From NCBI RefSeq assembly GCF_000757825.1, contig NZ_CP009451.1, forward strand, positions 248,001 to 312,000: DNA of 64,000 nucleotides, written 5' to 3'. A program made the translations under genes and the position numbers. Positions 29,990 through 54,823 of the stretch are shown one piece after another. The notes under the pieces were generated by a model. That model was not told the DNA's origin, did no database searches, and saw nothing but the letters and a program-made list of their open reading frames with translations. Origin of the DNA: Cedecea neteri. GTDB lineage: Bacteria; Pseudomonadota; Gammaproteobacteria; Enterobacterales; Enterobacteriaceae. Each line of letters starts with the position of its first letter. The stretch's first letter is position 1.

Positions 29990-30132
29990 AATATCACTCA
30001 CTGAAAGCAATGCCGGGTGAACAACCGTACGTGTGGTTTTTGATGATACTACCTCAGCGCCAGGCAATAATTGATTCAGGCAGACTCTCTTTTGTACACT
30101 TAAAGGAAATATGGAATTCGCATCACACTTTA

Positions 30133-30147
30133 TTATCAATATGATAA
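30133..30147. promoter_or_regulatory. Dyad TTATCA-N3-TGATAA, candidate UacR site (uacR/ygeW)
   Basis: The perfect dyad extends to 7-3-7 (ATTATCA-ATA-TGATAAT). It lies 200 bp upstream of the ygeW sigma-54 promoter and upstream of uacR, a normal distance for an enhancer. A half-site TTATCAATT follows at 30162. The same dyad recurs at 39654-39668 and, with one mismatch, at 55050-55064. Confidence 0.55.
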
Positions 30148-39814: not shown

Positions 39815-39831
39815 CTGGTGTGATTGTTGCT
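39815..39831 (+). promoter_or_regulatory. Sigma-54 type promoter of ygfK-ssnA
   Basis: CTGGTGTGATTGTTGCT: GG and GC exactly 10 bases apart, with a perfect TTGCT -12 box. The predicted transcript start (about 39842) leaves a 56-base leader before the ygfK ATG at 39898 and excludes translation from the upstream ATT/ATG region. Confidence 0.75.
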
Positions 39832-39897
39832 ACTCCTCTCCCTAACCGCCGGTTCTCCGGCTTATTCGATTTAACAGGTCAGCCTAAGGAGAGGATT

Positions 39898-42800
39898 ATG
39901 GGAGATATCATGCGCCCCATTCCGTTTGAGGATTTATTGACGCGCATTTTTGATGAATACCACAATCACCAGTCTATCTTCGGTATTCCAGAACAGCAGT
40001 TTTATTCCCCCGCCAGCCAACAGCGCCTGAGTGTTTTTGGCGAGACGTGTGTAACCCCTGTCGGCCCTGCTGCCGGGCCGCACACTCAGCTGGCGCAAAA
40101 CATTATTACCGCCTGGCTGACCGGCGGGAGGTTTATTGAGCTGAAAACGGTTCAAATCCTCGACCGGCTGGAACTGGAAAAACCTTGTATCGATGCGGAA
40201 GATGAATGCTTTAACACCGAATGGTCGACGGAATTCACGCTTCTGAAGGCGTGGGATGAATATCTGAAAGCCTGGTTTATCCTGCATCTGCTGGAGAAAG
40301 TGCTGCCGCTAACGCCGGTGAAAGAAGGTAAATCGTTTATTTTCAATATGAGCGTCGGCTACAACCTGGACGGCATTAAACAACCTGCGATGCGGCAGTT
40401 TATCGATAACATGATGAACGCCGCCGGCCATCCAAAATTTGAGCAATACCGTGAAACGCTCAACCGTTGGCTGCACAATACCGACTTCTGCGCCCGTTAT
40501 CCGCAGCCTGAACTAAAGACGCTGAGCCAGTGTATCCCGGCAGATATGGTTCATGGCGTTACGCTATCGACAATGCACGGCTGCCCGCCGGACGAAATCG
40601 AAGCGATTTGCCGCTATATGCTGGAAGACAAACAGCTTAATACCTTTGTGAAGCTCAACCCAACGCTGCTGGGCTATCCACGTGTGCGTGAAATACTCGA
40701 TAGCTGCGGCTTTGATTACATTGGCCTTAATGAAGAATCATTTGATCATGACCTGAAAATTGGCCAGGCGCTGGAGATGCTGCAACGCCTGATGCAGTTA
40801 GCGAAAACGAAGAACCTTGGCTTCGGCGTGAAGCTGACCAACACGCTGGGCACGGTGAACAACAAAGGCGCGCTGCCGGGCGATGAAATGTATATGTCCG
40901 GGCGAGCCCTGTTCCCACTCTCTATCAACGTCGCTGCCCTGCTTTCCCGCGAATTTGACGGCAAACTGCCTATTTCCTATTCCGGGGGGGCGAACCAGCT
41001 TAATATCCGCGAAATTTTCGAAACCGGTATTCGCCCCATCACAATGGCAACGGATCTGCTTAAACCGGGCGGTTATCTGCGCCTGAGCGAGTGTCTGCGT
41101 GAGCTGGAGCAGTCCGATGGCTGGAATATGACGCAGGTTGATGTTGTCCGACTGAATGCGCTGGCAGAGAAAGCCGTTAGCATGGCGTATACCCAGAAAC
41201 AGTGGAAACCGGACGACCGCATCGACGTGGGCGAAAAATTACCGGTGACCGACTGTTATGTCGCCCCCTGCGTTACCGCCTGCGCCATCAAGCAGGACAT
41301 TCCGGAATACATTCGGCTGATGGGTGAACAACGCTATGCCGATGCCCTGGAGCTTATCTACCAGCGTAACGCGCTGCCGGCGATCACCGGCCATATTTGC
41401 GATCACCAGTGCCAGTACAACTGTACCCGCCTGGATTACGATAGCGCACTGAACATCCGCGAGATGAAAAAAATCGCCCTCGAAAAAGGCTGGAATGAAT
41501 ACCGGCAGCGCTGGCATAAACCTGCGGGCTCCGGGATGCGGCACCCGGTGGCGGTGATTGGGGCGGGCCCGGCCGGGCTGGCCGCGGGGTACTTCCTCGC
41601 CCGCTCAGGTTACAGTGTCACATTATTTGAGAGGGAAACTAATGCCGGTGGCGTAGTACGTAATATCATTCCGCAATTCCGTATTCCCGGCGAACTAATC
41701 CAGCAAGATATTGATTTTGTTGTGAACCACGGCGTTAACATCGTTTACGGATGCGACCCACACCTGAGTGTCGAAAAGCTTCAACAACAGGGGTTCCGCT
41801 ACGTACTGATCGGCACAGGAACCGATAAAAACAGCGGCGTGAAGCTACACGGCGATAACCAGAACGTGCATAAGTCGCTTCAGTTCCTGCGTGAATTTAA
41901 CCGTGGAGATAACCTCCATCTCGGCAAACATGTCGCTGTCGTTGGCGCCGGGAATACCGCGATGGACTGTGCCCGTGCTGCGCTCCGCGTACCCGGCGTA
42001 GAAAAAGCGACCGTGATTTACCGCCGCTCTCAGCAAGAGATGCCCGCGTGGCGCGAAGAGTACGAAGAAGCGGTACATGATGGCGTAGCGTTCCGGTTCC
42101 TCAATAACCCGGAACAGTTCGACGCCGACGGTACGCTGACCGTGCGCGTTATGGCTTTGGGTGAAATGGACGACAAAGGTCGCCGTCGCCCGGTTGAAAC
42201 CGAAGAAACCTGTACCCTGCAGGTCGACACGTTGATTACTGCCGTAGGCGAACAGCAGGACGGCGAAGCGCTGGCTGCGATGGGCATTCCGCTGGATGAA
42301 CACGGCTGGCCAGAAGTTAACGCCGACGGTGAAACTCGTCATTCTGGCGTATTCCTGATTGGCGACGTCCAGCGCGGCCCTTCCTCCATTGTTTCCGCCA
42401 TCGGCAATGCTCGTCGCGCCACCGACACCATTCTGGCCCGGGAGAACATTCGCAGCCATCACGGTGAAAAGCGCTGGAATAACGTCGATCCTGCGGAAGT
42501 CTATCGTCGCAAAGGCACCATCGTCGTGGCGCAGGCGGATAAAGACGACCGCGATGCCTTTGCCGCCCAGGAGGCTGCACGCTGCCTGGAATGTAATTAT
42601 GTGTGCAGCAAATGTGTCGACGTTTGCCCGAACCGCGCCAATGTTTCTATTGCCGTACCCGGCTTCCAGAACAGGTATCAAACTCTACACCTCGATGCTT
42701 ACTGCAACGAATGCGGCAACTGCGCTCAGTTCTGTCCGTGGCAAGGCAAGCCATACAAAGACAAAATTACCGTCTTTAGCCTGCCTCAGGACTTCAACAA

Positions 42801-42990
42801 CAGCAGCAATCCGGGGTTCCTGGTTGAAGGCAACCGCGTGCATATCCGCCAGGAGGAACGGACCTGGCTGTTAACTCTTGATGAACGAGGGCAGTTTACC
42901 AGGATACCGCCTCAGTTGGATGATATGTGCCGCATCATCAGCCACATCCACCGTCACCATCATTACCTGCTGGGAGTCGTTGAAGCATGA
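39898..42990 (+). CDS. ygfK: YgfK, Fe-S flavoprotein of anaerobic urate/purine degradation
   Basis: 1030 residues, colinear with E. coli YgfK (1032). N-terminal dihydroorotate-dehydrogenase-like barrel (VTLSTMHGCPPDEIEAICRY, NTLGTVNNKGALPG), then a cysteine region (PCVTACAIKQDIPEY, HICDHQCQYNC), a GltD-like FAD/NAD(P)H part with AVIGAGPAGLAAGYFLA near 550 and VVGAGNTAMDCARAAL near 680, and two C-terminal 4Fe-4S sets (CLECNYVCSKCVDVC, CNECGNCAQFC). YgfK is required for anaerobic urate degradation in gut bacteria and probably reduces the purine ring or an intermediate. Start 39898 follows AAGGAGAGG. Its end overlaps ssnA by ATGA. Confidence 0.93.
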   Translation: MGDIMRPIPFEDLLTRIFDEYHNHQSIFGIPEQQFYSPASQQRLSVFGETCVTPVGPAAGPHTQLAQNIITAWLTGGRFIELKTVQILDRLELEKPCIDAEDECFNTEWSTEFTLLKAWDEYLKAWFILHLLEKVLPLTPVKEGKSFIFNMSVGYNLDGIKQPAMRQFIDNMMNAAGHPKFEQYRETLNRWLHNTDFCARYPQPELKTLSQCIPADMVHGVTLSTMHGCPPDEIEAICRYMLEDKQLNTFVKLNPTLLGYPRVREILDSCGFDYIGLNEESFDHDLKIGQALEMLQRLMQLAKTKNLGFGVKLTNTLGTVNNKGALPGDEMYMSGRALFPLSINVAALLSREFDGKLPISYSGGANQLNIREIFETGIRPITMATDLLKPGGYLRLSECLRELEQSDGWNMTQVDVVRLNALAEKAVSMAYTQKQWKPDDRIDVGEKLPVTDCYVAPCVTACAIKQDIPEYIRLMGEQRYADALELIYQRNALPAITGHICDHQCQYNCTRLDYDSALNIREMKKIALEKGWNEYRQRWHKPAGSGMRHPVAVIGAGPAGLAAGYFLARSGYSVTLFERETNAGGVVRNIIPQFRIPGELIQQDIDFVVNHGVNIVYGCDPHLSVEKLQQQGFRYVLIGTGTDKNSGVKLHGDNQNVHKSLQFLREFNRGDNLHLGKHVAVVGAGNTAMDCARAALRVPGVEKATVIYRRSQQEMPAWREEYEEAVHDGVAFRFLNNPEQFDADGTLTVRVMALGEMDDKGRRRPVETEETCTLQVDTLITAVGEQQDGEALAAMGIPLDEHGWPEVNADGETRHSGVFLIGDVQRGPSSIVSAIGNARRATDTILARENIRSHHGEKRWNNVDPAEVYRRKGTIVVAQADKDDRDAFAAQEAARCLECNYVCSKCVDVCPNRANVSIAVPGFQNRYQTLHLDAYCNECGNCAQFCPWQGKPYKDKITVFSLPQDFNNSSNPGFLVEGNRVHIRQEERTWLLTLDERGQFTRIPPQLDDMCRIISHIHRHHHYLLGVVEA

Positions 42991-44321
42991 GTATCTTAAT
43001 TCTGAAAAACGCCACAGCTGCACAGATTTATCCGGCGATGGTGCGTGAGAATATCGACATCGCCATCGAAAACGATGAAATTATCGCCGTAGGGAGCAAC
43101 CTCAGGAGTACATTTCCACAGGCCAATATTAAAGACATGCATGGTCGCTTAGTGATGCCGGGAATGGTCTGTTCCCATAACCACTTCTACTCAGGATTAT
43201 CGCGTGGTATTCAGGCAAATATTGCCCCCAGCCCGGACTTTATCTCGACGCTGAAAAACCTGTGGTGGCGGCTGGACCGTGCGTTAGATGAGGAGTCGCT
43301 ATACTACAGCGGGCTGATTTGCGCCCTCGAAGCAATTCGCAGTGGCTGCACGGCGGTAATAGACCATCATGCATCCCCTGACTATATCGCCGGATCTCTC
43401 AGCCAACTGCGCAATGCCTTTCTGAAGACAGGATTACGCGGCATGACCTGTTTTGAAACCACTGACCGCAACGGCGGCTCGCAAGAGCTGCAGGCAGGCG
43501 TGGAGGAGAACATGCGTTTTGCATGTGAGATTGACCGGGCGCGTGAGGCAGGACTTGAGCCCTATCTGGTCGAAGCACATATTGGCGCACATGCCCCGTT
43601 CACCCTCAGTAATGAGGGGCTTTCGATGCTTGGTGAGGCCATAAAAGCAACCGGCCGCGGGTTACATATTCACGCGGCGGAAGACCGTTATGACGTGTCC
43701 CATAGTCACCATCATTACGGAAAAGATTTACTGGTACGGCTGGCCGAATATGATCTGCTTAACAGTAAAACGCTGGTCGCGCACGGTCTCTATCTTTCCG
43801 ATGCCGACATCGCGCTACTCAATGAGTGTGATGGTTTCCTGGTACACAACGCACGCTCTAATATGAACAACCATGTGGGCTACAACCAAAAGCTTGGCGC
43901 CTGGCGGAATCTGGCATTGGGTACGGATGGTATTGGTTCAGATATGTTTGAGGAGATGAAATTTGCCTTCTTCAAACATCGCGATGCCGGCGGCCCTCTT
44001 TGGCCAGACAGTTTTGCCCGTGCCCTCAGCAACGGAAACGCCCTGCTTAGCCGCAACTTCAACGCCAAATTTGGCCGCATTGAGGCTGGCTACAAGGCCG
44101 ACCTGACGATTATCGATTACCTGCCACCAACGCCGCTCATCGCAGAAAACATCGCCGGGCATATTGCCTTTGGCATGGGCTCAAACCATGTCCACAGCGT
44201 GATGGTTAACGGTGAGATGGTGTATGAAGACCGACAGTTCATGTTTGACTGCGCACCTGTTTTTGCTGAAGCACAAAAAGTGGCGGCGAAAATGTGGCGG
44301 CGAATGGACTCCCTGCCTTGA
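42987..44321 (+). CDS. ssnA: Putative aminohydrolase SsnA
   Basis: 444 residues of the amidohydrolase superfamily (guanine/chlorohydrolase-like). Metal ligands appear in CSHNHFYSGLSRG, HIHAAED, LVAHGLYL and LGTDGIGSDM. It is close to E. coli SsnA (442). Translation is coupled to ygfK by a 4-base overlap. Its substrate is not established; deamination or hydrolysis of an aminopurine-derived intermediate is the likely role, and it belongs to the conserved gene set for anaerobic urate catabolism. Confidence 0.92.
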   Translation: MSILILKNATAAQIYPAMVRENIDIAIENDEIIAVGSNLRSTFPQANIKDMHGRLVMPGMVCSHNHFYSGLSRGIQANIAPSPDFISTLKNLWWRLDRALDEESLYYSGLICALEAIRSGCTAVIDHHASPDYIAGSLSQLRNAFLKTGLRGMTCFETTDRNGGSQELQAGVEENMRFACEIDRAREAGLEPYLVEAHIGAHAPFTLSNEGLSMLGEAIKATGRGLHIHAAEDRYDVSHSHHHYGKDLLVRLAEYDLLNSKTLVAHGLYLSDADIALLNECDGFLVHNARSNMNNHVGYNQKLGAWRNLALGTDGIGSDMFEEMKFAFFKHRDAGGPLWPDSFARALSNGNALLSRNFNAKFGRIEAGYKADLTIIDYLPPTPLIAENIAGHIAFGMGSNHVHSVMVNGEMVYEDRQFMFDCAPVFAEAQKVAAKMWRRMDSLP

Positions 44322-44395: not shown

Positions 44396-44875
44396 CTACC
44401 GAAGAAACAGACTCGCCGCAGCACACTCGCGCTGCTTTTGCATTTCCCTCAGTTGCTGCTCCCCCATCTTACTTAATGCCGATGTCGGACAAACATCAAT
44501 GCACGCCGGACCACGCTCGCGGCCGTTGCACAGGTCGCACTTGAGTATAGTTGCCGTCTTTTGCTCGGGATTAACGCCCACGCTGATTACCCCGAACGGA
44601 CACGCTACCACACAGCTTTGGCAGCCAATACAGCGTGAATCTTCGGCTTCGACACGCTCACTTCCCATCGTTAACGCTGCCACCGGGCAGGCGCTTACAC
44701 AGGGGGCATTTTCACATTGATGGCACATCACCGGCACGCTTACGGTATCGAGGCGTAGCACTTTGAGTCGCGGCCGAAACGCCGCGTCCTCAGTAACGTG
44801 CTCCATAGCGCAGGCGATCTCACAGGTACGGCAGCCAATACAGGATGCCGAATCGGCCAGAATAAAGCTGGTCAT
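44396..44875 (-). CDS. ygfS: 4Fe-4S electron transfer protein YgfS (HydN-like)
   Basis: 159 residues with four cysteine sets of the HydN/DmsB type: CIGCRTCEIAC, CHQCENAPCVSAC, CIGCQSCVVAC and CDLCNGRERGPACIDVC. This should bind four 4Fe-4S clusters and carry electrons between dehydrogenase partners. It begins inside the last codons of uacF (ATGA overlap). HydN is linked to formate dehydrogenase H in E. coli; a formate dehydrogenase H gene lies 4 kb away here, so this may be its electron acceptor for urate reduction. Confidence 0.9.
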   Translation of the reverse strand: MTSFILADSASCIGCRTCEIACAMEHVTEDAAFRPRLKVLRLDTVSVPVMCHQCENAPCVSACPVAALTMGSERVEAEDSRCIGCQSCVVACPFGVISVGVNPEQKTATILKCDLCNGRERGPACIDVCPTSALSKMGEQQLREMQKQRECAAASLFLR

Positions 44876-46812
44876 GCTCCCTCCTTGCCCTTAAACATCG
44901 CCAGCATTTCACTGGCCGCCTGCCGGCCGGCAACCATCGCCGTGACCACCAGGTCCGCACCATGTACCGCATCGCCACCAGCATAGATTTTGTCATTACT
45001 GGTTTGCGTTGTGCCGCGCCCTTTCCCGCCGGTGCAAATCTGCCCCCAACGGTCAAGCTGCACGCCGTGACCACGCAGCCACGGCATATCATGCGCCTGA
45101 AAACCGAATGCCATAATGAGTACGTCAACGGGTAGCTCAAAGTCGGAACCCGCCACAGGCCGCGGACGACGGCGGCCATCAGGACCCGGGTCACCCATCT
45201 CGGTACGGATCATGCCGATCGCCGTTACCTTGCCTTTGCGATCGCGCTGGATGTATTGAGGCTGCACGTTAAACTGGAACTCAACGCCTTCTTCTCTGGC
45301 GTTAACTACCTCTTTTTTCGAGCCCGGCATGCTCAGCTCATCGCGACGGTAGGCGCAGGTGACGCTCGCAGCCCCACGGCGTATTGCGGTACGCAGGCAG
45401 TCCATTGCGGTATCACCACCGCCAAGCACCACAACGTGTTTATCTTTAATGTTGATCATCGGGTATTCCTCGTTCTCCTCCAGCCCCATCACTTCGCGAG
45501 TGCTGGCAATCAGAAATGGCAACGCCTGAATTACGCCGGGAGCATCTTCACCCTCCAGTCCCGCCGCCATAAGGCCGTAGGTACCTACGCCAAGGAATAC
45601 CGCGTCATAGTTCACCATCAGGTCGTTAAATTGTATATTGCGCCCAACTTCATGATTAAGGTGAAAACGGATGCCCATTTCACTGAAAATGCTTCGTCTG
45701 ACGCCCAGAATACCTTTGTCCAGTTTGAACGGTGGAATACCGAAAGTGAGTAATCCTCCAATTTCTGGATGTTTGTCAAAGACATCAACCTGAACGCCAG
45801 CGCGAGCCAAAATATCAGCACATCCCAGCCCGGCAGGACCCGCACCGACAATCGCCACACGTTCTTTACGCGGCACAATATCACTTATCTGAGGTCGCCA
45901 GCCCGACGCCAGCGCGGTGTCGGTGATATAGCGCTCCAGGTTGCCAATGGTCACCGAACCACCCTCATTTTTCAGCGTACAAGCCCCTTCGCACAGGCGA
46001 TCCTGCGGGCAAACGCGGCCACAGATTTCCGGCAAAGAACTTGTTTGATGGCACAATTCAGCCGCCTCGATAATCTTCTCTTCATTTACGAGCCTGATGA
46101 AGTCGGGAATAGAGTTATGCAGCGGGCATGTCCAGTTACACCAGGCTTTTTGTGCGCAGTGCAGGCAGCGATCGCTTTCATACTCAGCATCACGACTGCC
46201 AAGCCCGTAATAGATCTCTTCGAATTGCGTTTTGCGAATGCCGGCTTCTACTTTTTTTGCTCCCACGCGAGGTGGTTTGCTGATAAATGTTTCCCGGCGA
46301 CCAGGTTGACGAACCTGCGCCGCCTGCCCTTGTACGCTTCGGATTTGCCGCTTACTGCGTAGGTTTTCTAATTCGGCATCGTCCATCAGGCGCAGCGCTT
46401 GTGTTGGGCAAACGCTGACGCAGGCAGGTTTTCCTGTGGGATGTTCGCTGCACAAGTCACATTTTTGCGCCAGCTGCGGGGCGCTGTCATCGGCAGACAC
46501 CATCTCGATGGCGCCAAAGGGACAGGCGATCGCGCAACTCTTACAGCCAATGCATTTCTCTTGCTTTAATTGAATGCTGTTATTAACAAAAGAGAGCGCG
46601 TCGGTTGGGCAGGATGCGACACATGGCGCATCGTTACAGTGGTGACAGGTTGTCGCATTGCTCTCTTTACGGTGGAAAACAACGTGGATCCGCGGCTGAA
46701 AATCCGCCCGCTTCAACGGCCATCTGTCCTGGTGATGAGCCGTCACGCAGGCAACCTCGCAGGCATGGCAGCCAATACAGCTCGTGGCATCGGCAACAAT
46801 AAATCTGTTCAT
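44872..46812 (-). CDS. uacF: Urate-degradation Fe-S/FAD oxidoreductase UacF (YgfT, AegA-like)
   Basis: 646 residues. The first 190 form a polyferredoxin with four cysteine sets (CIGCHACEVAC, CHHCNDAPCVASC, CIGCKSCAIAC, CDLCSEHPTGKPACVSVC). Next come a GltD-type cysteine linker (CPLHNSIPDFI, CGRVCPQDRLCEGAC) and FAD/NAD(P)H domains with AIVGAGPAGLGCADILA and VVLGGGDTAMDCLRTA. It matches E. coli UacF/YgfT and AegA, which with formate dehydrogenase H are needed for formate-dependent urate breakdown. It is translationally coupled to ygfS and divergent from uacT across 471 bp. Confidence 0.92.
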   Translation of the reverse strand: MNRFIVADATSCIGCHACEVACVTAHHQDRWPLKRADFQPRIHVVFHRKESNATTCHHCNDAPCVASCPTDALSFVNNSIQLKQEKCIGCKSCAIACPFGAIEMVSADDSAPQLAQKCDLCSEHPTGKPACVSVCPTQALRLMDDAELENLRSKRQIRSVQGQAAQVRQPGRRETFISKPPRVGAKKVEAGIRKTQFEEIYYGLGSRDAEYESDRCLHCAQKAWCNWTCPLHNSIPDFIRLVNEEKIIEAAELCHQTSSLPEICGRVCPQDRLCEGACTLKNEGGSVTIGNLERYITDTALASGWRPQISDIVPRKERVAIVGAGPAGLGCADILARAGVQVDVFDKHPEIGGLLTFGIPPFKLDKGILGVRRSIFSEMGIRFHLNHEVGRNIQFNDLMVNYDAVFLGVGTYGLMAAGLEGEDAPGVIQALPFLIASTREVMGLEENEEYPMINIKDKHVVVLGGGDTAMDCLRTAIRRGAASVTCAYRRDELSMPGSKKEVVNAREEGVEFQFNVQPQYIQRDRKGKVTAIGMIRTEMGDPGPDGRRRPRPVAGSDFELPVDVLIMAFGFQAHDMPWLRGHGVQLDRWGQICTGGKGRGTTQTSNDKIYAGGDAVHGADLVVTAMVAGRQAASEMLAMFKGKEGA

Positions 46813-47283
46813 TTGCTTCCCTTTTATTATTCAATAAATACCTCAAGGGATACGATGCAATTTTCAGACGCATTTGTTGCTTTTAAGAAGAATGGATTTA
46901 TTTTTGAGAGATGTGTCAACAAAATGATTAACAACAAAAAAATCAGTATATTGAGATCCCCCCGTGCTCTTTAGATTATCGCCCCGATATTAACTGACTA
47001 CCAATATGAGAGATAAATTATCTCAATGTGATATTCCACGCGTCGCCTGTGTTTACCCCTCATTGCCTGCCCATCCTTTATAGCTCATCCGCCGTGATTT
47101 AATTCACAAATATATTCATCTGCAACCAAACCCTGCATTTTTGGCACAGCTTACGCATAGATAACGTCGTGTGCGCAATTTGCTGATGGCGACATCAGCT
47201 CAGGGAGGCATCTGCCTTCGAATCGTAACTTCCTCTCCGCCTATACGAACGAGAGCCGAAGTCGTACAGGAGATAATTACTTC
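46813..47283. other. Divergent control region uacF / uacT
   Basis: 471 AT-rich bases with no gene. It holds the uacT sigma-54 promoter and a cluster of imperfect dyads at about 47005-47033 (GAGATAAATTATCTC, then TTATCTCAATGTGATA) that resemble degenerate versions of the TTATCA-N3-TGATAA element. I see no clear sigma-54 promoter facing uacF. Confidence 0.55.
47141..47157 (+). promoter_or_regulatory. Sigma-54 type promoter of uacT-fdhF
   Basis: TTGGCACAGCTTACGCA: perfect -24 TTGGCAC, then GC exactly 10 bases after GG. The -12 box is weaker (ACGCA). The predicted start at about 47168 leaves a leader of some 115 bases before uacT. Confidence 0.75.
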
Positions 47284-48756
47284 ATGAAAGACTCTGCCAT
47301 TCCTGCCTCAAACGCTACGACATCAACCGAGCCAGTCGATGAGGTTCTACCTATTACACAAATGGTTCTTTATGGCCTGCAGCACGTACTGGTGATGTAC
47401 GCCGGTGCCGTGGCCGTGCCATTAGTGGTCGGTAATGCCGTCGGTTTACCCGCTGAACATATTATCTTGCTGATAAGCGCCGATCTGTTTATCTGCGGGG
47501 CTGCCACTATCGTGCAATCGTTAGGAATTCGCCCCTGGCTGGGCTGTCGATTACCGTTAATTCAGGGGTGTACCTTTGCCGCACTGATTCCAATGGTGCT
47601 GATCGGAAAAGAGTACGGAATCGGCACTATTTCAGGCTCGGTTATCGTCTCCGGGATCTTTATTTTATGCTGTGCTCCGTGGATAAGCCGTCTTATACGC
47701 TTCTTCCCCAAAGTCGTCATGGGCGGCATTGTTACCCTGATTGGCCTGTCGATTATGCCCGTTGCCGGTGGCTGGATTGGCGGCGGCAACAGCAACATGA
47801 ACGGGTTTGGAGATCTTTTTTCACTGCTGATGGCCGCTATTACGCTAATCATCATTCTTAATCTTTATACCTTCGCAACCGGCGTTGTAAAAAATACCGC
47901 CGTGCTCGTGGGGCTGATCATTGGCACAATTTTATGGAGCTTTTTTAAGCCGCTCGATTTCCATCTGGTTAACGTCACCCCGTGGATTCACTTTCCACAG
48001 CTGATGCAGTTTGCGCGCCCGGAATTCCATATTGTGCCGGTTGCCCTGCTGTCGATGGTCATGGTGGTAGTTATGGTTGAAACCATGTCTTCCATGATGG
48101 CCACCGGCGACATTGTCGGTAAGAAAGTGGACTCAGGCATGCTACGCAACGGCCTTAATACCTGCGGCTTAGCTACTACAATCTGCGGCTTCTTCAATCT
48201 CTTTCCTTACGCAGCCTTTGCCCAGAACGTCGGGCTTATCGGCTTAACCGGCGTACGTAGCCGTTTTGTGGTATCGGTCTCCGGAGTAATTCTCATTTTG
48301 ATGGGCGTATTTTCCAAACTCGCCGCGCTGGTGGTGCTTATCCCTAAGCCAGTGCTTGGTGGCGCGGGGATCGTGATGTTCGGCATGGTGGCGGTATCCG
48401 GCATTCGTACCCTTGGCCAGGTCAACTATCGAAATAACAACAACGGAATGGTGGTGGCATTAACGCTTGGCCTCGGCATGATGCCGGTGCTGGTGCCGAA
48501 CCTGTTTAGCCAGTTCCCCCCCATGATGCAGCTGTTTTTACACAGCGGGATAACTATCGGCACCTTGACCGCCATTGTTGCCAACTTAACGCTCAACGGT
48601 AGCGTACCACTCCGAGTCTCCCACGATGCCCTGGAACCCGATCCGGCTCCGCCTAGCGCCGCAGCGCGCAATATGGCCGTGCGTACTGTACGCATGTGGC
48701 TCCTGCTACGCAAAGTACAGAGGGAGCAACAGCCCCAGCAAAACGTGGGGAAATAA
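47284..48756 (+). CDS. uacT: Urate:proton symporter UacT (NCS2 family)
   Basis: 490 residues with about 14 membrane segments. NCS2 landmarks: QHVLVMYAGAVAVPLVVG (TM1 region with the conserved His), LIQGCTFAALIPM, GVVKNTAVLVGL and the signature PYAAFAQNVGLIGLTGVRSR. It matches E. coli UacT/YgfU (482), a high-capacity urate transporter. It supplies the substrate of the island. Its stop TAA overlaps the ATG of a 38-codon ORF, with fdhF just behind. Confidence 0.93.
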   Translation: MKDSAIPASNATTSTEPVDEVLPITQMVLYGLQHVLVMYAGAVAVPLVVGNAVGLPAEHIILLISADLFICGAATIVQSLGIRPWLGCRLPLIQGCTFAALIPMVLIGKEYGIGTISGSVIVSGIFILCCAPWISRLIRFFPKVVMGGIVTLIGLSIMPVAGGWIGGGNSNMNGFGDLFSLLMAAITLIIILNLYTFATGVVKNTAVLVGLIIGTILWSFFKPLDFHLVNVTPWIHFPQLMQFARPEFHIVPVALLSMVMVVVMVETMSSMMATGDIVGKKVDSGMLRNGLNTCGLATTICGFFNLFPYAAFAQNVGLIGLTGVRSRFVVSVSGVILILMGVFSKLAALVVLIPKPVLGGAGIVMFGMVAVSGIRTLGQVNYRNNNNGMVVALTLGLGMMPVLVPNLFSQFPPMMQLFLHSGITIGTLTAIVANLTLNGSVPLRVSHDALEPDPAPPSAAARNMAVRTVRMWLLLRKVQREQQPQQNVGK

Positions 48757-48872
48757 TGCCAGGCCGGATCTTACTCGCCCTGCTGGCGCTGGCATTGATG
48801 GCAATCCCCGCCGTGCAGCAGGCCATCGCCTTTGGCGTCAGCAGCCGTTTTAGCTTTGGGCTGTTGTTTTAG
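48756..48872 (+). CDS. 38-residue hydrophobic small protein between uacT and fdhF
   Basis: The ATG overlaps the uacT stop (TAATG), a classic coupling arrangement, and the frame ends 22 bp before fdhF. The peptide has one hydrophobic segment (about residues 5-20, LLALLALALMAIPAV) followed by an amphipathic, aromatic tail ending FGLLF; a single-pass membrane microprotein or a cleaved signal-like peptide. Possible roles are a UacT or formate dehydrogenase partner, or simply a coupling leader. I do not recognise a family. Confidence 0.5.
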   Translation: MPGRILLALLALALMAIPAVQQAIAFGVSSRFSFGLLF

Positions 48873-48897
48873 ATTTACCGTTAACTGGAGGGCCATG

Positions 48898-51045
48898 ATG
48901 AAAAAAGTGACCACCGTATGCCCATACTGTGCCGCAGGCTGCAAGCTGCAGCTGGTGGTAGAGAATGGGAAGATCGTGCGCGCTGAAGCGGCGATGGGCA
49001 AAAATAACCAAGGTACGCTGTGCCTGAAAGGCTATTACGGCTGGGACTTTGTCCACGATACCCGCATTTTGACGCCGCGCCTGCAAACCCCAATGATCCG
49101 CCGCCGCCGAGGCGGCAAGCTGGAGTCCGTACCCTGGGATGAGGCGCTTGATTATGTGGCTACTCGCCTCACCGAGATTAAAGAAAAGTATGGTCCGGAT
49201 GCTATCCAGACCACCGGTTCTTCCCGAGGTACGGGCAATGAAACCAATTACGTGATGCAAAAATTCGCCCGGGCGGTGATTGGCACCAATAACGTGGATT
49301 GCTGCGCGCGCGTCTGACACGGCCCTTCGGTTGCAGGTCTGCACCAGTCGGTCGGTAACGGCGCAATGAGCAATGCCATCACTGAGATTGATAACAGCGA
49401 TTTAGTGTTTATCTTCGGCTATAACCCGGCAGATTCACACCCTATCGTGGCAAATCACGTCCTGAATGCTAAACGCAACGGCGCTAAGATTATTGTCTGC
49501 GATCCCCGGCGAATTGAAACCGCTCGCATCGCGGATATGCACCTGGCGCTGAACAACGGCTCTAACATTGCGCTCCTTAATGCGCTTGGGCACGTCATTA
49601 TTGCTGAGGCTCTCTACGACAACGCGTTTGTTGCCCAGCGTTCTGAAGGTTTTGATGAATATCGTAAAATCGTGGCGGGCTATACGCCGGAATCCGTTGA
49701 GGCTATTACCGGAGTCAGCGCGCAAGAAATTCGCACCTGCGCTCGACTGTACGCCACGGCTAAGTCCGCCACCATTCTATGGGGAATGGGGGTGACCCAG
49801 TTTTATCAAGGTGTTGAAACAGTAAGATCGTTAACAAGCCTGGCTATTTTAACCGGCAATCTCGGTAAACCGGGCGTGGGCGTTAACCCTGTGCGTGGGC
49901 AGAATAACGTTCAGGGCGCCTGCGATATGGGCGCGTTACCTGATACTTTCCCTGGCTATCAGTTCGTTAAGGTTCCGGAAAACAGAGAAAAGTTTGCCCG
50001 GGCATGGGGAGTAGAAAGCTTACCTGCCCATACGGGCTATCGCATCAGTGAACTGCCGCATCGCGCTGAACACGGCGAAGTGCGAGCAGCCTACATTATG
50101 GGGGAAGATCCGCTGCAAACCGACGCCGAACTTTCGGCGGTGCGTAAGGCGTTTGAGACGCTGGAGCTGGTCATCGTACAGGATATTTTCATGACTAAAA
50201 CGGCAGCGGCGGCCGATGTTATTCTGCCCTCCACGTCCTGGGGCGAGCATGAAGGTGTCTACACTGCGGCGGACAGAGGCTTTCAGCGCTTCTTTAAGGC
50301 GGTGGAGCCAGAGTGGGATCTCAAAACCGACTGGCAGATTATCAGTGAAATTGCCACCCGGATGGGCTACCCGATGCAGTACAACAATACTCAGGAAATC
50401 TGGGATGAGCTGCGGCATCTGTGCCCGGATTTCTACGGTGCTACCTACGAGAAAATGGGCGAACTTGGCTACCTGCAGTGGCCATGCCGTGATGAGTCGG
50501 ATACGGACCAGGGGACGTCTTATCTGTTTAAAGAGGCATTTTCGACGCCGAACGGCCTGGCGCAGTTCTTTACCTGCGACTGGGTTGCGCCCCTCGATAA
50601 ACTTAGCGACGAGTTTCCGATGGTGCTTTCAACGGTGCGTGAGGTTGGCCACTACTCTTGCCGTTCGATGACCGGCAACTGTTCTGCACTGTCGACCCTG
50701 GCCGATGAGCCAGGCTATGCGCAAATCAACACCCTGGATGCCGCACGGCTGGGTATTGTTGATGAAGCGCTAGTGTGGGTGAACTCTCGCAAGGGGCGCA
50801 TTATCACCCGTGCAAAAGTCAGCGAGCGGCCCAATAAAGGCGCAATTTACATGACATACCAATGGTGGATTGGTGCCTGTAATGAGCTGGTAACGGAGAA
50901 TCTTAGCCCGATAACCAAAACGCCGGAGTACAAGTATTGCGCCGTTCGCGTTGAGCCGATTGCTGACCAACAGGCCGCCGAGCAGTACGTAGTGGATGAG
51001 TATCGCAAATTGAAGGCGCGGCTGCGGGAAAGCGCGGTGGGCTAA
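48898..51045 (+). CDS. fdhF: Formate dehydrogenase H, selenocysteine-containing
   Basis: 715 residues with an in-frame TGA at 49315-49317 read as selenocysteine 140, the same position as in E. coli FdhF (715). 4Fe-4S ligands are in CPYCAAGC and the following CLKG; Sec is followed by HGPSVAG. Molybdopterin-guanine-dinucleotide regions include GYNPADSHP, GVNPVRGQNNVQGACDMG and PSTSWGEHEGV. It oxidises formate to CO2. ATG 48898 is preferred to 48895 for spacing to GGAGGG and family match. In E. coli fdhF lies elsewhere under FhlA; here it follows uacT without a terminator, so it should share the urate-regulated sigma-54 promoter. Confidence 0.95.
49315..49352 (+). promoter_or_regulatory. Selenocysteine codon TGA and bSECIS hairpin
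   Basis: TGA 49315-49317 is followed by the apical SelB-binding hairpin GGTTGCAGGTCTGCACC at 49329-49345, with the GGTCT loop and bulged T known from the E. coli fdhF element. It lies at the correct 11-base distance from the TGA. The reading frame continues open on both sides, so this is recoding, not a nonsense mutation. Confidence 0.95.
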
Positions 51046-51077
51046 GCGTTGGGGAACTTCTTGTCGCGTTGGGGTGG

Positions 51078-51109
51078 GCCGGGCGGTGTGATACCGCCCG
51101 GCGTTTTTA
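51078..51109 (+). terminator. Rho-independent terminator after fdhF
   Basis: Ten-pair stem GCCGGGCGGT-GTGAT-ACCGCCCGGC followed by GTTTTTATTT, between the convergent fdhF and Fe-S subunit genes. Confidence 0.9.
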
Positions 51110-51115
51110 TTTCGT

Positions 51116-51574
51116 TCAGGATTTTAACGCGTGGTGAATGGAGTCGAGAATAGGCTGATAGCCGGTACAGCGGCAGATATTTCCTTCCAGTACATCTTTA
51201 AGCTGTTCGTCGCTGGGCTGCGGTTCTTTTTCCAGCAGCGCGGTGGTGCTGACCAGCACACCCGGCGTACAAAAGCCGCACTGTACACCGCCTTTTTCAA
51301 CAAATGCCTCCTGCAATTTCTGCGTGACAGGATTATCGTTCAGCCCCTCCAGGGTGGTGATTTCCGCCTCATCGCACTGCTCTGCCAGTACCAGGCAGGA
51401 GCAGACCGCGTTACCGTCCATAATGACCGTACACGCGCCGCATTCCCCAATGGAGCAGCCTTCTTTTGTGGCTGTCAGCCGCAATGTATTGCGGACCAGA
51501 TCCAACAGGCGCATATTGCCCTCCACTTTGGCTTCAACCAGCTTGCCGTTGACCTTTACTTTAATTGTGCTCAT
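51116..51574 (-). CDS. Molybdenum hydroxylase 2Fe-2S subunit (XdhC-like)
   Basis: 152 residues. The plant-type 2Fe-2S cluster ligands are in CSIGECGACTVIMDGNAVCSC and the second, alpha-helical cluster ligands in CGFCTPG and CRCTGY. This is the small electron-transfer subunit of xanthine dehydrogenase-type enzymes. It lies 42 bp behind the Mo-FAD fusion gene and must form the complex with it. Electrons from purine hydroxylation would pass through it to FAD or to the island's ferredoxin-like proteins. Confidence 0.92.
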   Translation of the reverse strand: MSTIKVKVNGKLVEAKVEGNMRLLDLVRNTLRLTATKEGCSIGECGACTVIMDGNAVCSCLVLAEQCDEAEITTLEGLNDNPVTQKLQEAFVEKGGVQCGFCTPGVLVSTTALLEKEPQPSDEQLKDVLEGNICRCTGYQPILDSIHHALKS

Positions 51575-51616
51575 GGCTCAGTCCCTGCAGGACGCCTTCG
51601 CGCCCTGTCCTCATGG

Positions 51617-54600
51617 TTATTTTTCCAACGCTTGCGCCATCATGTCGCGGAACATGCTGATAAACACCGGCTGCTTATAGGCCGCAGACCAGCGTTTACC
51701 GATAGCGGCGTAAATCAGCTTGTCGAGTACCTCGCAGGCACTGTCGATAGTGGCCGGGTTTAGCCGTTGGCCCAGCAGGCAGCGTTCAACATCAATAAGT
51801 CGCTGAGGCTTGCTGAACAGCGCACCATCAACCAGCCGGCAGTAGCTCACCGTGCCGTCGTCGGCAATTTCCAGCAGCATGGTCAGGCTTTGACGAGTAA
51901 TATTCAGCGCGTTTCGGCGACCCAGCTGATGGTAAAAGCCTTTAGCGTCAGGTTTTGTCGGCGGCGGCAGAATAAGACGGGTTAATAGCTCATCAGGCTC
52001 TCGCTGAGTTTTGTACCCCGAGATCAGAAACTCACCCAGCGACATCCGGCGCACGCCGCGATGAGACTGCAGCTCAATGCTGCCGTCGTAGAGGATGGCC
52101 GGTGGAATGGAATCACCACAAGGTGCGGCGTTGACGATATTGCCGCCGATGGTCGCCCGGTTACGAATCTGGTGCGAGCCCACCGTGTGGCAAGCCTGTA
52201 CCAACAGCGGATAACGTTCTCGAAGCAGCGTATTTTCGGTAATGCGGTTGAACGTTACTGCCGCACCAATAGAAATTTCATGCGATTGTGTATCTTCGAT
52301 CACCTGCGTCAGCTCGCCGAGGCGCGAAATATCCACCAGCTTCATGGCCCGGGTTTGCATGCGCCCCTGCACAATCACGTCCGTGCCGCCGGCAATAGCC
52401 GTGACACCGTCACTTTTTAGCAGTTCCAGGGCCTCACTTAGCGTTCCAGGCCGCGTCACGGTGACATCCGTCAGACGTAATACCTGTTTCTTATTCCCAG
52501 GCTCGATCATCAATTCACTCTGACGAGCCGGTTTTTTCAGGTTATAACCCAGAATCACCTGCTCCAGGGTTAACGGCAGCTTGTTGAAACGAGTCCCCAG
52601 CGCAAAGCTCACCGCGTTATTGATGGCCGCGGCGACTAACTCCGTGGCAGGCTCGCCAATCCCTTTCGCGCCTAGCGGGCCGGCCTTGTCCGGGTTCTCA
52701 ACGCCGATAACGGTAATCGGGGGAATATCTTTGATCGTCGGCAGCAGATAGCTGTCAAAGTTCTCGGACTTCACCTGCCCGTGCTCAATGTTGAAATCCT
52801 CTAACAGAGCATAGCCAAAGCCCTGTGCCACGCCGCCACAGACCTGCCCCTCAAACCCGACCGGGTTAAGAACCTGGCCGACATCGTGGGCGGCAGTAAC
52901 ATGCAGCAAGTCAGTTTTACCGGTGCTGATATTCACCCGCACCTCGGCCACCTGGCAGCCGTAAACCCAGGTAAAATACGGGCTGCCACAGCCTTTTTCT
53001 TCATCCCAGTGAATGGGCGGCGGCACAAACCAACCGTATTCAGTCAGGCTCACGCTGGCCCACTTAGTTTTATTCACCGCCGATTTGAAGTCGATACGCT
53101 GGCTATTATCATGTTTGTTGATAATAAAGCCGCCCTGCCACAGCGTATCCTCAAGATGAGCTACCCCGATGCTCTCACCGACGACGCCGAGAATGCGCCG
53201 TTTGATCTTCTGCGCAGCATCAATAATCGCTCCGCCGCCGACCATTGTTCCGCGCGTCGCCGCCGTGGAGCCCCCGTCGCCGATGACCGAAGTTGGCGGC
53301 TCCATAAAATGAAACTCGCTCATTTCGATGCCAAACGCTTCGGCGGCAATCAACGTCATCGTGGTTTGCAGCCCCTGTCCGTTTTCCGACACCGACGTCG
53401 AAAGGCTGACGCTACCGTCTTCGTTGACCTGAATCAGCGCCGTTGAGGTATCAACCCCTTCAGCACCGATCGAGCACCCGCGATAGCTCAACGCCAGGCC
53501 AATACCGTAACGGTAGACGCCGCCCTTCTCGTTAAGCGCCTGATAATGTTTTCGTTTCGCCATAAACTCGGCCGAATCGGTAGCCTTTGCCAGCACTTCA
53601 TGCGCGGAAACCGTATGTTGGTCAAACACCTGGCCGGTAATCGACGCATCGCCCTGGCGTAAGGCGTTAATTTCGCGCACCGTGACAGGCGACATCTTCA
53701 GATACTCAGCAATCTCATCCATTAGTGATTCGTGAGCGTAAACCACCTGCGGAGAACCGAAGCCGCGCATCGCGGAGGTGTAACTGTTGTTGGTGTACAC
53801 CGCCGTGACGTCGATATGCACGTTTGGGATGGCGTATGGGCCTGCGGCCTGCACTGACGAACGCCAGGTGACAAACGGTGACGAAGCCGCATAGCCACCG
53901 CTGTCGGCCAGGATATCAACTTTAATGGCCTGGATACGGCCGCTGTCGTCCAGCCCGACCTTGTATTTCATTTTATATGGATGGCGTTTGCAGCTTTCGA
54001 TAATTGACTGTTCGCGCGTGTAGGCAAATTTCACCGGTTTCCCGGTCAGATGCGTCAGCAGAGCCGAACGGCAGGCCAGATGGTCAATAACATCATCTTT
54101 GCCGCCGAACGAGCCCCCCATAACGGCGCGTTTTACGTTGATCATGCTTTGCGGGCAGCCCATGAACTTAGCGACGAAACCGCGAACGCGGTGCGGGTTT
54201 TGCACCGAGCCAGAAATAATCAGGCTGCCGTCGGTCGGGTCAAGCCAGGTTAGCACCACCTCGGGTTCAATATAAGCATGCTCCTGAAAACCCACTTCAT
54301 ATTCGCGCTCGAGGATATGACGCGACTGCGCGAAGCCTTTTTCAACATCACCTTTGAGGGTGTGATGATGCGCGGCAATATTGTCGCTGCGTTCCGGATG
54401 AATGCAGCGCGCGTCTGGCGCAAGCGCAGCTTCAACATCGGTCAATGGCGTGTATGGCGTATAGCGTACGTGGATTTTGTCGGCCGCTGTGCAGGCCGCT
54501 TCATAGGTAGTAGCGGCAACTACCGCAATAACGTCGCCGTGAAAAACCACCTCATCCTTAATAATTGGCAGGTAATCTTTGACGATAACACCAACAACCG

Positions 54601-54823
54601 GCGTGCCGGGGATGTCCTGCCAGGTGGCAATTTTAACCACCCCCTCGACCGCCAGCGCTTCGCTTAAGTCGAGCTGATCTATTTTCCCTGCCGGAATATC
54701 CGCATAACGACAGACGCCGTATAACATATCCGGCAAAGTAATATCATCGCCGTAGATGGCCGTTCCTTTGACCTTTGCCACTCCATCCACGCGTCCTGGC
54801 GACGCTGAACGCAAAGCACACAT
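51617..54823 (-). CDS. Molybdenum hydroxylase, fused Mo-cofactor and FAD subunits
   Basis: 1068 residues. Residues 1 to about 765 are the molybdopterin subunit of the xanthine dehydrogenase family: PGRVDGVAKVKGTAIYGDD, QNPHRVRGF, MGGSFGGKDD, AMRGFGSPQ and the catalytic glutamate in GAKGIGEPATE (near 722). From about 772 the chain becomes an FAD subunit (AIAGGTDVIVQGRMQ, RNRATIGGNIVNAAPCGDSI). In E. coli these domains are separate or arranged otherwise (XdhD lacks the FAD part). With yqeB, yqeC and mocA in the island it is probably a selenium-dependent xanthine/purine dehydrogenase. Transcribed first in its operon. Confidence 0.9.
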   Translation of the reverse strand: MCALRSASPGRVDGVAKVKGTAIYGDDITLPDMLYGVCRYADIPAGKIDQLDLSEALAVEGVVKIATWQDIPGTPVVGVIVKDYLPIIKDEVVFHGDVIAVVAATTYEAACTAADKIHVRYTPYTPLTDVEAALAPDARCIHPERSDNIAAHHHTLKGDVEKGFAQSRHILEREYEVGFQEHAYIEPEVVLTWLDPTDGSLIISGSVQNPHRVRGFVAKFMGCPQSMINVKRAVMGGSFGGKDDVIDHLACRSALLTHLTGKPVKFAYTREQSIIESCKRHPYKMKYKVGLDDSGRIQAIKVDILADSGGYAASSPFVTWRSSVQAAGPYAIPNVHIDVTAVYTNNSYTSAMRGFGSPQVVYAHESLMDEIAEYLKMSPVTVREINALRQGDASITGQVFDQHTVSAHEVLAKATDSAEFMAKRKHYQALNEKGGVYRYGIGLALSYRGCSIGAEGVDTSTALIQVNEDGSVSLSTSVSENGQGLQTTMTLIAAEAFGIEMSEFHFMEPPTSVIGDGGSTAATRGTMVGGGAIIDAAQKIKRRILGVVGESIGVAHLEDTLWQGGFIINKHDNSQRIDFKSAVNKTKWASVSLTEYGWFVPPPIHWDEEKGCGSPYFTWVYGCQVAEVRVNISTGKTDLLHVTAAHDVGQVLNPVGFEGQVCGGVAQGFGYALLEDFNIEHGQVKSENFDSYLLPTIKDIPPITVIGVENPDKAGPLGAKGIGEPATELVAAAINNAVSFALGTRFNKLPLTLEQVILGYNLKKPARQSELMIEPGNKKQVLRLTDVTVTRPGTLSEALELLKSDGVTAIAGGTDVIVQGRMQTRAMKLVDISRLGELTQVIEDTQSHEISIGAAVTFNRITENTLLRERYPLLVQACHTVGSHQIRNRATIGGNIVNAAPCGDSIPPAILYDGSIELQSHRGVRRMSLGEFLISGYKTQREPDELLTRLILPPPTKPDAKGFYHQLGRRNALNITRQSLTMLLEIADDGTVSYCRLVDGALFSKPQRLIDVERCLLGQRLNPATIDSACEVLDKLIYAAIGKRWSAAYKQPVFISMFRDMMAQALEK
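52401..52413. other. matS site (MatP binding, Ter macrodomain)
   Basis: GTGACACCGTCAC matches the matS consensus GTGACRNYGTCAC at all 13 positions. It lies inside the FAD part of the molybdenum hydroxylase gene, 24.7 kb from dif. matS sites are confined to the terminus macrodomain, agreeing with dif in this window. Confidence 0.8.

Follow-up and report, generated by a model that had tools for sequence, protein, structure and literature searches.

A formate dehydrogenase H gene directly behind a uacT-type permease gene in a urate-type gene cluster of Cedecea neteri and its relatives

In Escherichia coli, formate-dependent degradation of urate reportedly requires FdhF (formate dehydrogenase H, FdhH), a finding credited to Iwadate and Kato in 2019, and fdhF is there presumably unlinked to the permease gene uacT. 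The pathway to which these genes belong has been described as reductive, and formate as a reported co-substrate when E. coli and Enterococcus degrade urate, in the accessible part of a paper that cites Iwadate and Kato 2019 and in which the word fdhF does not occur (PMC12507026). Here we describe a stretch of 64,000 nucleotides from Cedecea neteri (contig NZ_CP009451.1, positions 248,001 to 312,000; hereafter the window), in which a complete fdhF containing a selenocysteine (Sec) codon lies directly behind a uacT-type permease gene inside a urate-type cluster. We estimate at roughly 70% the probability that this locus is dedicated to supplying anaerobic purine (urate-type) breakdown with electrons from formate. 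No description of fdhF behind uacT was found in the open-licence literature, a search that left most subscription papers outside its scope and is therefore not proof.

The uacT-type open reading frame (ORF), a 38-codon ORF and fdhF lie on one strand (+) and share one direction, with a sigma-54-type site upstream and a strong terminator after fdhF. A reading made earlier from the letters of the window (the sequence-only reading) had described uacT, a coupled 38-codon ORF and a complete Sec-containing fdhF as co-directional, with no terminator before 51078, and the coordinates, the selenocysteine insertion sequence (SECIS) and the terminator fold all agree with it:

47007..47025, no strand assigned: palindrome TGAGAGATAAATTATCTCA, candidate enhancer site for UacR (YgeV), ~117 bp before the sigma-54-like site
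47142..47157, + strand: sigma-54-type promoter-like site TGGCACAGCTTACGCA before uacT-yqfG-fdhF, from its consensus score and its recurrence in relatives
47284..48756, + strand: uacT-type NCS2 permease, 490 residues (TIGR03173, 458.8 bits, cut-off 414)
48756..48872, + strand: 38-codon hydrophobic ORF, YqfG homologue by profile match to E. coli YqfG
48898..51045, + strand: fdhF, selenocysteine formate dehydrogenase H, urate-linked paralogue, 715 residues with Sec140 (TIGR01591)
49310..49364, + strand: SECIS element including the UGA codon at 49315-49317 (Rfam RF01988, SECIS_2)
51078..51102, + strand: intrinsic terminator 3' of fdhF, folding at -26.4 kcal/mol (z -2.9)

The start of the 38-codon ORF overlaps the stop of the uacT-type gene (TAATG), and in the interval from the uacT stop to fdhF a consensus scan found nothing resembling a terminator; over 46800-51600 on both strands the scan returned five terminator-like sites versus 6.1 in shuffles, and one of the five, a weak one (three G-C pairs), lies inside uacT at 48046. 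The sole in-frame TGA of fdhF is codon 140 (49315-49317), positioned within a SECIS element whose score of 84.1 bits exceeds the gathering score of 70. The FdhF protein is full length and exceeds the curated cut-off of its model (1029.1 bits versus 666.25), its translation carries the N-terminal four-cysteine cluster motif (C8, C11, C15 and C42), and it matches E. coli FDH-H (1aa6, 1fdi, 1fdo, 2iv2 and 7z0t) across residues 1-714. By the function of its family, this FdhH would oxidise formate to CO2.

The layout is not special to this organism, a correction to the sequence-only reading. The comparison covered 80 named FdhF loci, the top matches among 586 relatives of the query; records close to the window's genome may be missing from this set. 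In 11 of the 80, from three families, fdhF lies directly behind a uacT-type permease gene: Enterobacter sp. JUb54, Raoultella ornithinolytica, Enterobacter genomosp. O, Kluyvera georgiana, Serratia oryzae, Serratia sp. Ag1, Pluralibacter gergoviae, Klebsiella oxytoca, K. michiganensis, Cedecea colo and Mixta theicola. Because the 80 loci are the best of 586 relatives, 11/80 is not a frequency. UacF and YgfS were recognised beside uacT-fdhF at 10 of the 11 loci, the exception being M. theicola, in whose linked FdhF cysteine (Cys) replaces Sec.

A wider sample comprised a spread of 149 genomes of the family, many of them reduced and lacking all of the genes, with shared ancestry; linkage was judged from coordinates by eye and from 18 stretches that were read, and draft contigs can hide it. 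UacF at 65% identity or more occurs in 15 of the 149. In five genomes (G000, G001, G074, G078 and G034; G and L numbers are our handles for genomes and loci) fdhF lies ~2.1 kb from uacF, and in a sixth, G027, it stands behind uacT with uacF 21 kb away and the cluster adjoining gltP-acs. Linkage is probable in G042, whose contigs end just past uacT and a YqfG-type ORF (L109) and within fdhF (L122); this genome was left out of the linked count. G139, one of eight without visible linkage, has its UacF at a contig end. A second arrangement is found in G016 and G148, where ygfT, a HydN-like gene and a Cys-type fdhF are co-directional inside the same kind of urate cluster, and in G048 and G040 (L094 and L108) an aegA-like gene, a HydN-like gene and a Cys-type fdhF follow one another, and none of the queried urate genes lies within the 18 kb read. 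The Cys-type FdhFs of these four genomes group apart from the Sec copies in the tree, so that FdhF came to lie beside the UacF/AegA family by more than one route. In G071, of the same genus as the window, neither a full-length UacF/AegA match nor an fdhF close to such a gene was seen; the cluster therefore varies within the genus. The linkage is real, and broader than the sequence-only reading stated.

A search of the genome (4.88 Mb, a single contig) found three FdhF genes: the urate-linked Sec copy, a solitary Sec copy (L009) and a Cys copy at a formate hydrogenlyase (FHL) locus (L010). The solitary copy is flanked by als-type genes and gltP-acs (gene names by eye and synteny), which we take to be the position of fdhF in E. 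coli; the als-, gltP- and acs-type proteins of this locus share 99-100% identity with those in a Cedecea neteri record (L084). The Cys copy lies behind hydN, near genes matching FHL subunit 3 (hycC-type), HycF and a HycE-like protein and next to a hypF-type gene named by eye. A PF00374 profile search of the genome gave a single match, within this FHL locus, whose FHL-type genes are ~2.4 Mb from the urate-linked fdhF. A separate FHL-linked fdhF, suggested earlier as something to look for, is thus present, together with the solitary Sec copy. Judged by its sequence, the urate-linked FdhH is a paralogue separate from both.

The urate-linked copy also stands out by its upstream region. Sigma-54-type sites were scored with a literature consensus and without fitting a model, and the site at 47142-47157 is not special by score (15 sites of 11 or more in the 64 kb, versus a mean of 8.4 in 20 shuffles). 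A site scoring at least 8.8 lies 101 to 142 bases before uacT at all 12 uacT-fdhF loci (the 11 and the window), and a sigma-54-type site precedes uacT at each of 10 other uacT loci, as well as in one E. coli genome. Where fdhF is not linked to uacT, a site scoring at least 12.3 is found within 140 bp upstream in 66 of 69 loci (L074, L075 and L082 are without), versus none of the 12 linked copies reaching a score of 9 in 300 bp. In the window itself, no sigma-54 site of score 9 or more occurs within 300 bp before fdhF. G027 (L092), with fdhF 1.1 kb behind uacT, keeps a strong sigma-54 site of its own (score 15.5). Its urate cluster stands beside gltP-acs, presumably the E. coli fdhF position, and may show how the linkage originated.

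The palindrome block is conserved across 11 aligned ygfT-uacT intergenic regions (an alignment that omits L087, M. theicola), and its pattern, TGAGA-N9-TCTCA, has a single occurrence in the window, at 47007..47025. The YgeV iModulon of E. coli includes uacT, ygfT, ygfK and others, according to the accessible part of its description (PMC12132413), and sigma-54 sites found there by chromatin immunoprecipitation (ChIP), as far as the text was available, include ygfT, ygeW, ygfK and xdhA (PMC4591121). On the strength of the conserved palindrome and the iModulon, UacR may control the candidate uacT-fdhF promoter. A consensus for FhlA sites had no match with four or fewer mismatches in the E. albertii and K. 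pneumoniae loci and was dropped as a test. Separately, a conserved block before ygfT (46853-46874, - strand) has a good -12 and a poor -24 element and resembles what has been reported as a sigma-54 site at ygfT in E. coli.

The history of the linked copies points to a lineage of their own. The main tree was built from 56 of the 99 rows, namely every one of the 15 linked FdhFs and a hand-picked part of the others. One of its clades, with support 95/95, holds 12 of the 15 uacT-linked FdhFs; the G027 copy, not among the 15, branches outside it. In each of the three exceptions (JUb54, Raoultella and G001), the linked copy and the solitary copy of that genome are sisters. Linked and solitary DNA in these genomes are 93-100% identical per 150-base bin, but 77-82% in the first bin, and the linked copies are 98.7-98.9% identical to their own genome's solitary copy and 88-91% to those of others. 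The divergent stretch ends at nucleotide 107 or 108, in the codon of residue 36; five unconverted pairs keep differing from nucleotide 111, 114 or 120 on. This is the pattern of gene conversion, which evidently homogenised the linked fdhF with the solitary copy in three genomes while sparing the first 36 codons. A single ancestral conversion followed by later homogenisation may have occurred, as it would give the same junction, and three independent breakpoints are not claimed. In four of the six sequences (L016, L018, L012 and L022) no Chi site was found near the junction.

The spared segment also contains residues that tell the linked enzymes apart. The group-discriminating sites that pass the filter, 22, 33 and 36, are all N-terminal, and the combination of M33 and N36 is present in all 15 linked FdhFs and in none of the 84 others, some of which have one of the two residues alone. 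Both fall between cluster cysteines 15 and 42, in the [4Fe-4S] domain. In the E. coli FHL structure, hydrogen bonding and hydrophobic interactions hold FdhF against HycB, and the electron relay leads from the [4Fe-4S] cluster of FdhF to the clusters of HycB, according to the available part of the report (PMC9474812). The first 36 residues appear to carry the partner specificity of the urate-linked FdhH. We offer only tentatively the more specific proposal that FdhH is a plug-in donor whose docking is set by these residues, such that the distinct [4Fe-4S] surface of the urate form (M33 and N36) would commit it to YgfS/UacF instead of HycB, and selection would keep the tip distinct while conversion homogenises the rest.

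We searched for HycE with the HycE-like protein of L010 in 24 entries, representing 23 distinct genomes (G154 repeats G074); assembly completeness is not given for G149-G159, and absence of HycE applies to the assembly. In 8 of the 24 entries no HycE/HyfG was found (hits were ~30% identical, taken as NuoCD, or none) despite FdhF in the urate cluster. Six of these have the uacT-fdhF layout (G034, G078, G153 Serratia oryzae, G155 Serratia Ag1, G158 Cedecea colo and G159 Mixta theicola) and two the ygfT-hydN-fdhF layout (G016 and G148). The urate-cluster FdhF is the only FdhF found in six of the eight; both Serratia also have a Cys copy. Across the 149 genomes, FdhF accompanies full-length UacF/AegA in 54 of 54 (including G040, added by hand) and occurs in 12 of the other 95, and among the 94 genomes without HycE/HyfG it is present in 11 of 11 with UacF/AegA versus 1 of 83 without; Fisher tests on these counts are indicative only, given the many reduced genomes and the shared ancestry. 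Linked layouts cover 4 of the 12 FdhF genomes without HycE (G016, G034, G078 and G148). The earlier proposal of a dedicated FdhF apart from FHL is supported by a paralogue that falls mostly in one clade, is without the usual promoter site and is kept where no FHL hydrogenase was found. As for membership in FHL, the urate-linked fdhF has no hyc/hyp linkage and no sigma-54 promoter site of its own.

The genes around the operon-like unit supply candidates for the rest of the electron path:

28205..30139, - strand: ygeV (UacR), sigma-54 enhancer-binding protein, named by synteny with ygeW
39820..42990, + strand: ygfK, ring reductase of the urate pathway (TIGR03315, 1664 bits, cut-off 835)
42987..44321, + strand: ssnA, named by synteny behind ygfK
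44396..44875, - strand: ygfS, HydN-like [4Fe-4S] protein (AegA, YgfT and HydN models: 157, 139 and 130 bits)
44872..46812, - strand: ygfT/uacF, HydN-like Fe-S domain fused to a GltD-like NAD(P)H oxidoreductase (NF009451, equivalog, 1191.7 bits, cut-off 1154)
51116..51574, - strand: xanthine dehydrogenase (XDH)-type [2Fe-2S] subunit, convergent with fdhF, matches below equivalog cut-offs
51617..54823, - strand: fused XDH-type molybdenum and flavin adenine dinucleotide (FAD) subunit, 1068 residues, below the XdhD model cut-off

Enhancer-binding-protein models match the ygeV product, none over its cut-off among the best 25 of 34 matches. YqeC-type and XdhC/CoxI-type (YqeB by synteny) proteins are also present. 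An RHS/YD-repeat-like protein of 993 residues, assigned by eye, is encoded at 24017-26998.

In the mechanism that we infer, UacR would activate RNA polymerase-sigma-54 at 47142 to give a single uacT-yqfG-fdhF transcript, and FdhH would oxidise formate to CO2. Electrons would pass from the N-terminal [4Fe-4S] cluster of FdhH to the HydN-like YgfS and/or the HydN-like domain of UacF, and the GltD-like half of UacF would make NADPH or pass electrons on to the ring reductases, namely YgfK and the XDH-type enzyme. The predicted route leads through YgfS/UacF.

Several observations weigh against this reading, the first of which concern that route. In E. coli two-hybrid assays, the AegA-FdhF signal was not above the study's limit, and deletion of aegA left H2 output unchanged; HydN, YsaA and HycB interacted with FdhF (weak class) and AegA interacted strongly with HydN and YsaA, while YgfS and YgfT are outside the interaction table in the part of the paper available (PMC6004506). 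Because AegA gave no two-hybrid signal with FdhF and no effect on H2, direct contact between FdhF and UacF is doubtful. The two-hybrid pattern, together with the succession of ygfT, a HydN-like gene and fdhF in G016 and G148, makes YgfS, not UacF, the likelier first acceptor, and that gene order would suit a relay in which a HydN-like protein takes electrons from FdhF and hands them to UacF. Other points concern linkage and regulation: fdhF is next to uacT in only 6 of the 15 genomes with UacF at 65% or more, with one more probable and eight in which it was not seen so; in the other 8 of the 12 FdhF genomes without HycE, FdhF was not seen near UacF/AegA; ygfT and ygfS were not seen beside uacT-fdhF in M. 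theicola (L087); a quick tree of 83 rows gave a matching clade of 10 of 12 linked copies with an SH-like approximate likelihood ratio (SH-aLRT) of 84; and the accessible text of the sigma-54 ChIP paper does not contain ygfU, the old name of uacT (PMC4591121). The last two points bear on the substrate: the window permease is 42% identical to E. coli UacT, and no protein in the whole genome reaches the cut-off of TIGR03313, the model of the known urate reductase XdhD (best 217.6 bits versus 1101.9).

Both substrate points also favour the alternative that survives best, that the operon supplies formate electrons for the anaerobic degradation of some other purine, such as xanthine, instead of urate, with the fused XDH as first enzyme. 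The permease scores above the cut-off of TIGR03173, a xanthine-permease subfamily model, and the XDH-type molybdenum-FAD protein stands beside fdhF; the fused 1068-residue protein and its [2Fe-2S] partner may replace XdhD or act on another purine. XDH-type neighbours in relatives are of two types, 85-95% and ~60-68% identical. UacF and YgfK, on the other hand, score over equivalog cut-offs. The permeases of the 11 uacT-fdhF loci fall into two types, six of the window type (79-92% identical) and five at 41-43%, and the window type occupies the position of the E. coli type, with the same promoter-like site and with YqfG and UacF as neighbours. The assignment of the window permease as a close UacT orthologue has to be given up, although position, promoter-like site and YqfG are alike; because the window type stands where the E. 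coli type stands elsewhere, the substrate is probably shared. We regard a non-urate substrate as unlikely.

The 38-codon ORF, which occurs with both permease types, matches E. coli YqfG by profile (E 1e-7) and is unique in this genome at useful E-values; Pfam has no family for it or for E. coli YqfG. Over 45 pairs, its differences are mostly at the third codon position (677, 422 and 1009 at positions 1, 2 and 3). It was found in 9 of the 11 uacT-fdhF loci (not recognised in L065 and L067), and a scan of 13 loci for YqfG-type ORFs gave nine at E 2.1e-5 or better, one (L099) at only 0.45 and none in L101, L104 and L107. The idea that it goes with fdhF was rejected, as it follows uacT without an adjacent fdhF in L102 and L103. 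The YqfG-type protein is a frequent but not constant companion of uacT and may be a small subunit of the permease; E. coli YqfG is cleaved by RseP, according to the accessible part of that study (PMC10470546).

It is distinctly improbable that fdhF stands behind uacT by chance, as a copy that arose by duplication or horizontal transfer and simply adds FdhH for FHL. FdhF is otherwise an FHL subunit (54 of 55 HycE/HyfG genomes carry FdhF), the G027 cluster beside the gltP-fdhF site, where fdhF keeps its own promoter site, indicates that such a neighbourhood can arise by insertion, and in three linked copies conversion has turned the sequence from codon 37 on into that of the solitary copy. Yet the order is kept across three families while fdhF is without a promoter site of its own, the linked fdhF is retained where no HycE/HyfG was found, a second, Cys-type arrangement exists in the same kind of cluster, and the first 36 codons stay distinct. 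The FdhH reaction is reversible, and purine oxidation by XDH releases electrons. That FdhH runs in reverse or as a redox valve, disposing of such electrons instead of donating them, is nonetheless very improbable for a pathway described as reductive, with formate a reported co-substrate, in the accessible text (PMC12507026).

The layout suggests that anaerobic breakdown of uric acid can be fuelled by formate apart from the hydrogen-making machinery, which is relevant to uric acid removal by gut bacteria and to the wiring of one molybdenum-selenium enzyme to several acceptors. The recurring operon-like layout, the dedicated paralogue, the FdhF genomes in which no hydrogenlyase was found and the two-residue signature provide natural test strains and a short residue list for the question of the electron path.

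Compared with the FdhF of FHL, the urate-linked FdhF differs by M33/N36, where most solitary copies have Q33/T36, and its gene is away from hyc/hyp genes, has no promoter site of its own and is retained where no HycE/HyfG was found. The HydN-FdhF(Cys) unit of the FHL locus in this genome likewise pairs FdhF with a HydN-like [4Fe-4S] protein, but its FdhF has Cys instead of Sec, is 66% identical to the urate-linked FdhF and is encoded next to hycC-, hycE- and hycF-type genes. The window homologue of E. coli YqfG, matched by profile, is in the same place behind uacT, but it has 38 residues compared with 41 and is followed by fdhF. Finally, the window and the E. coli formate-dependent urate system have in common a UacF equivalog, YgfS, YgfK, a YgeV-type regulator and a permease-YqfG pair, and the window FdhF is intact; the window permease is only 42% identical and XdhD was not found. 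Whereas uacT-yqfG in the E. coli genome compared is followed by yqfH (on the other strand) and idi, the window has at this position an extra fdhF paralogue.

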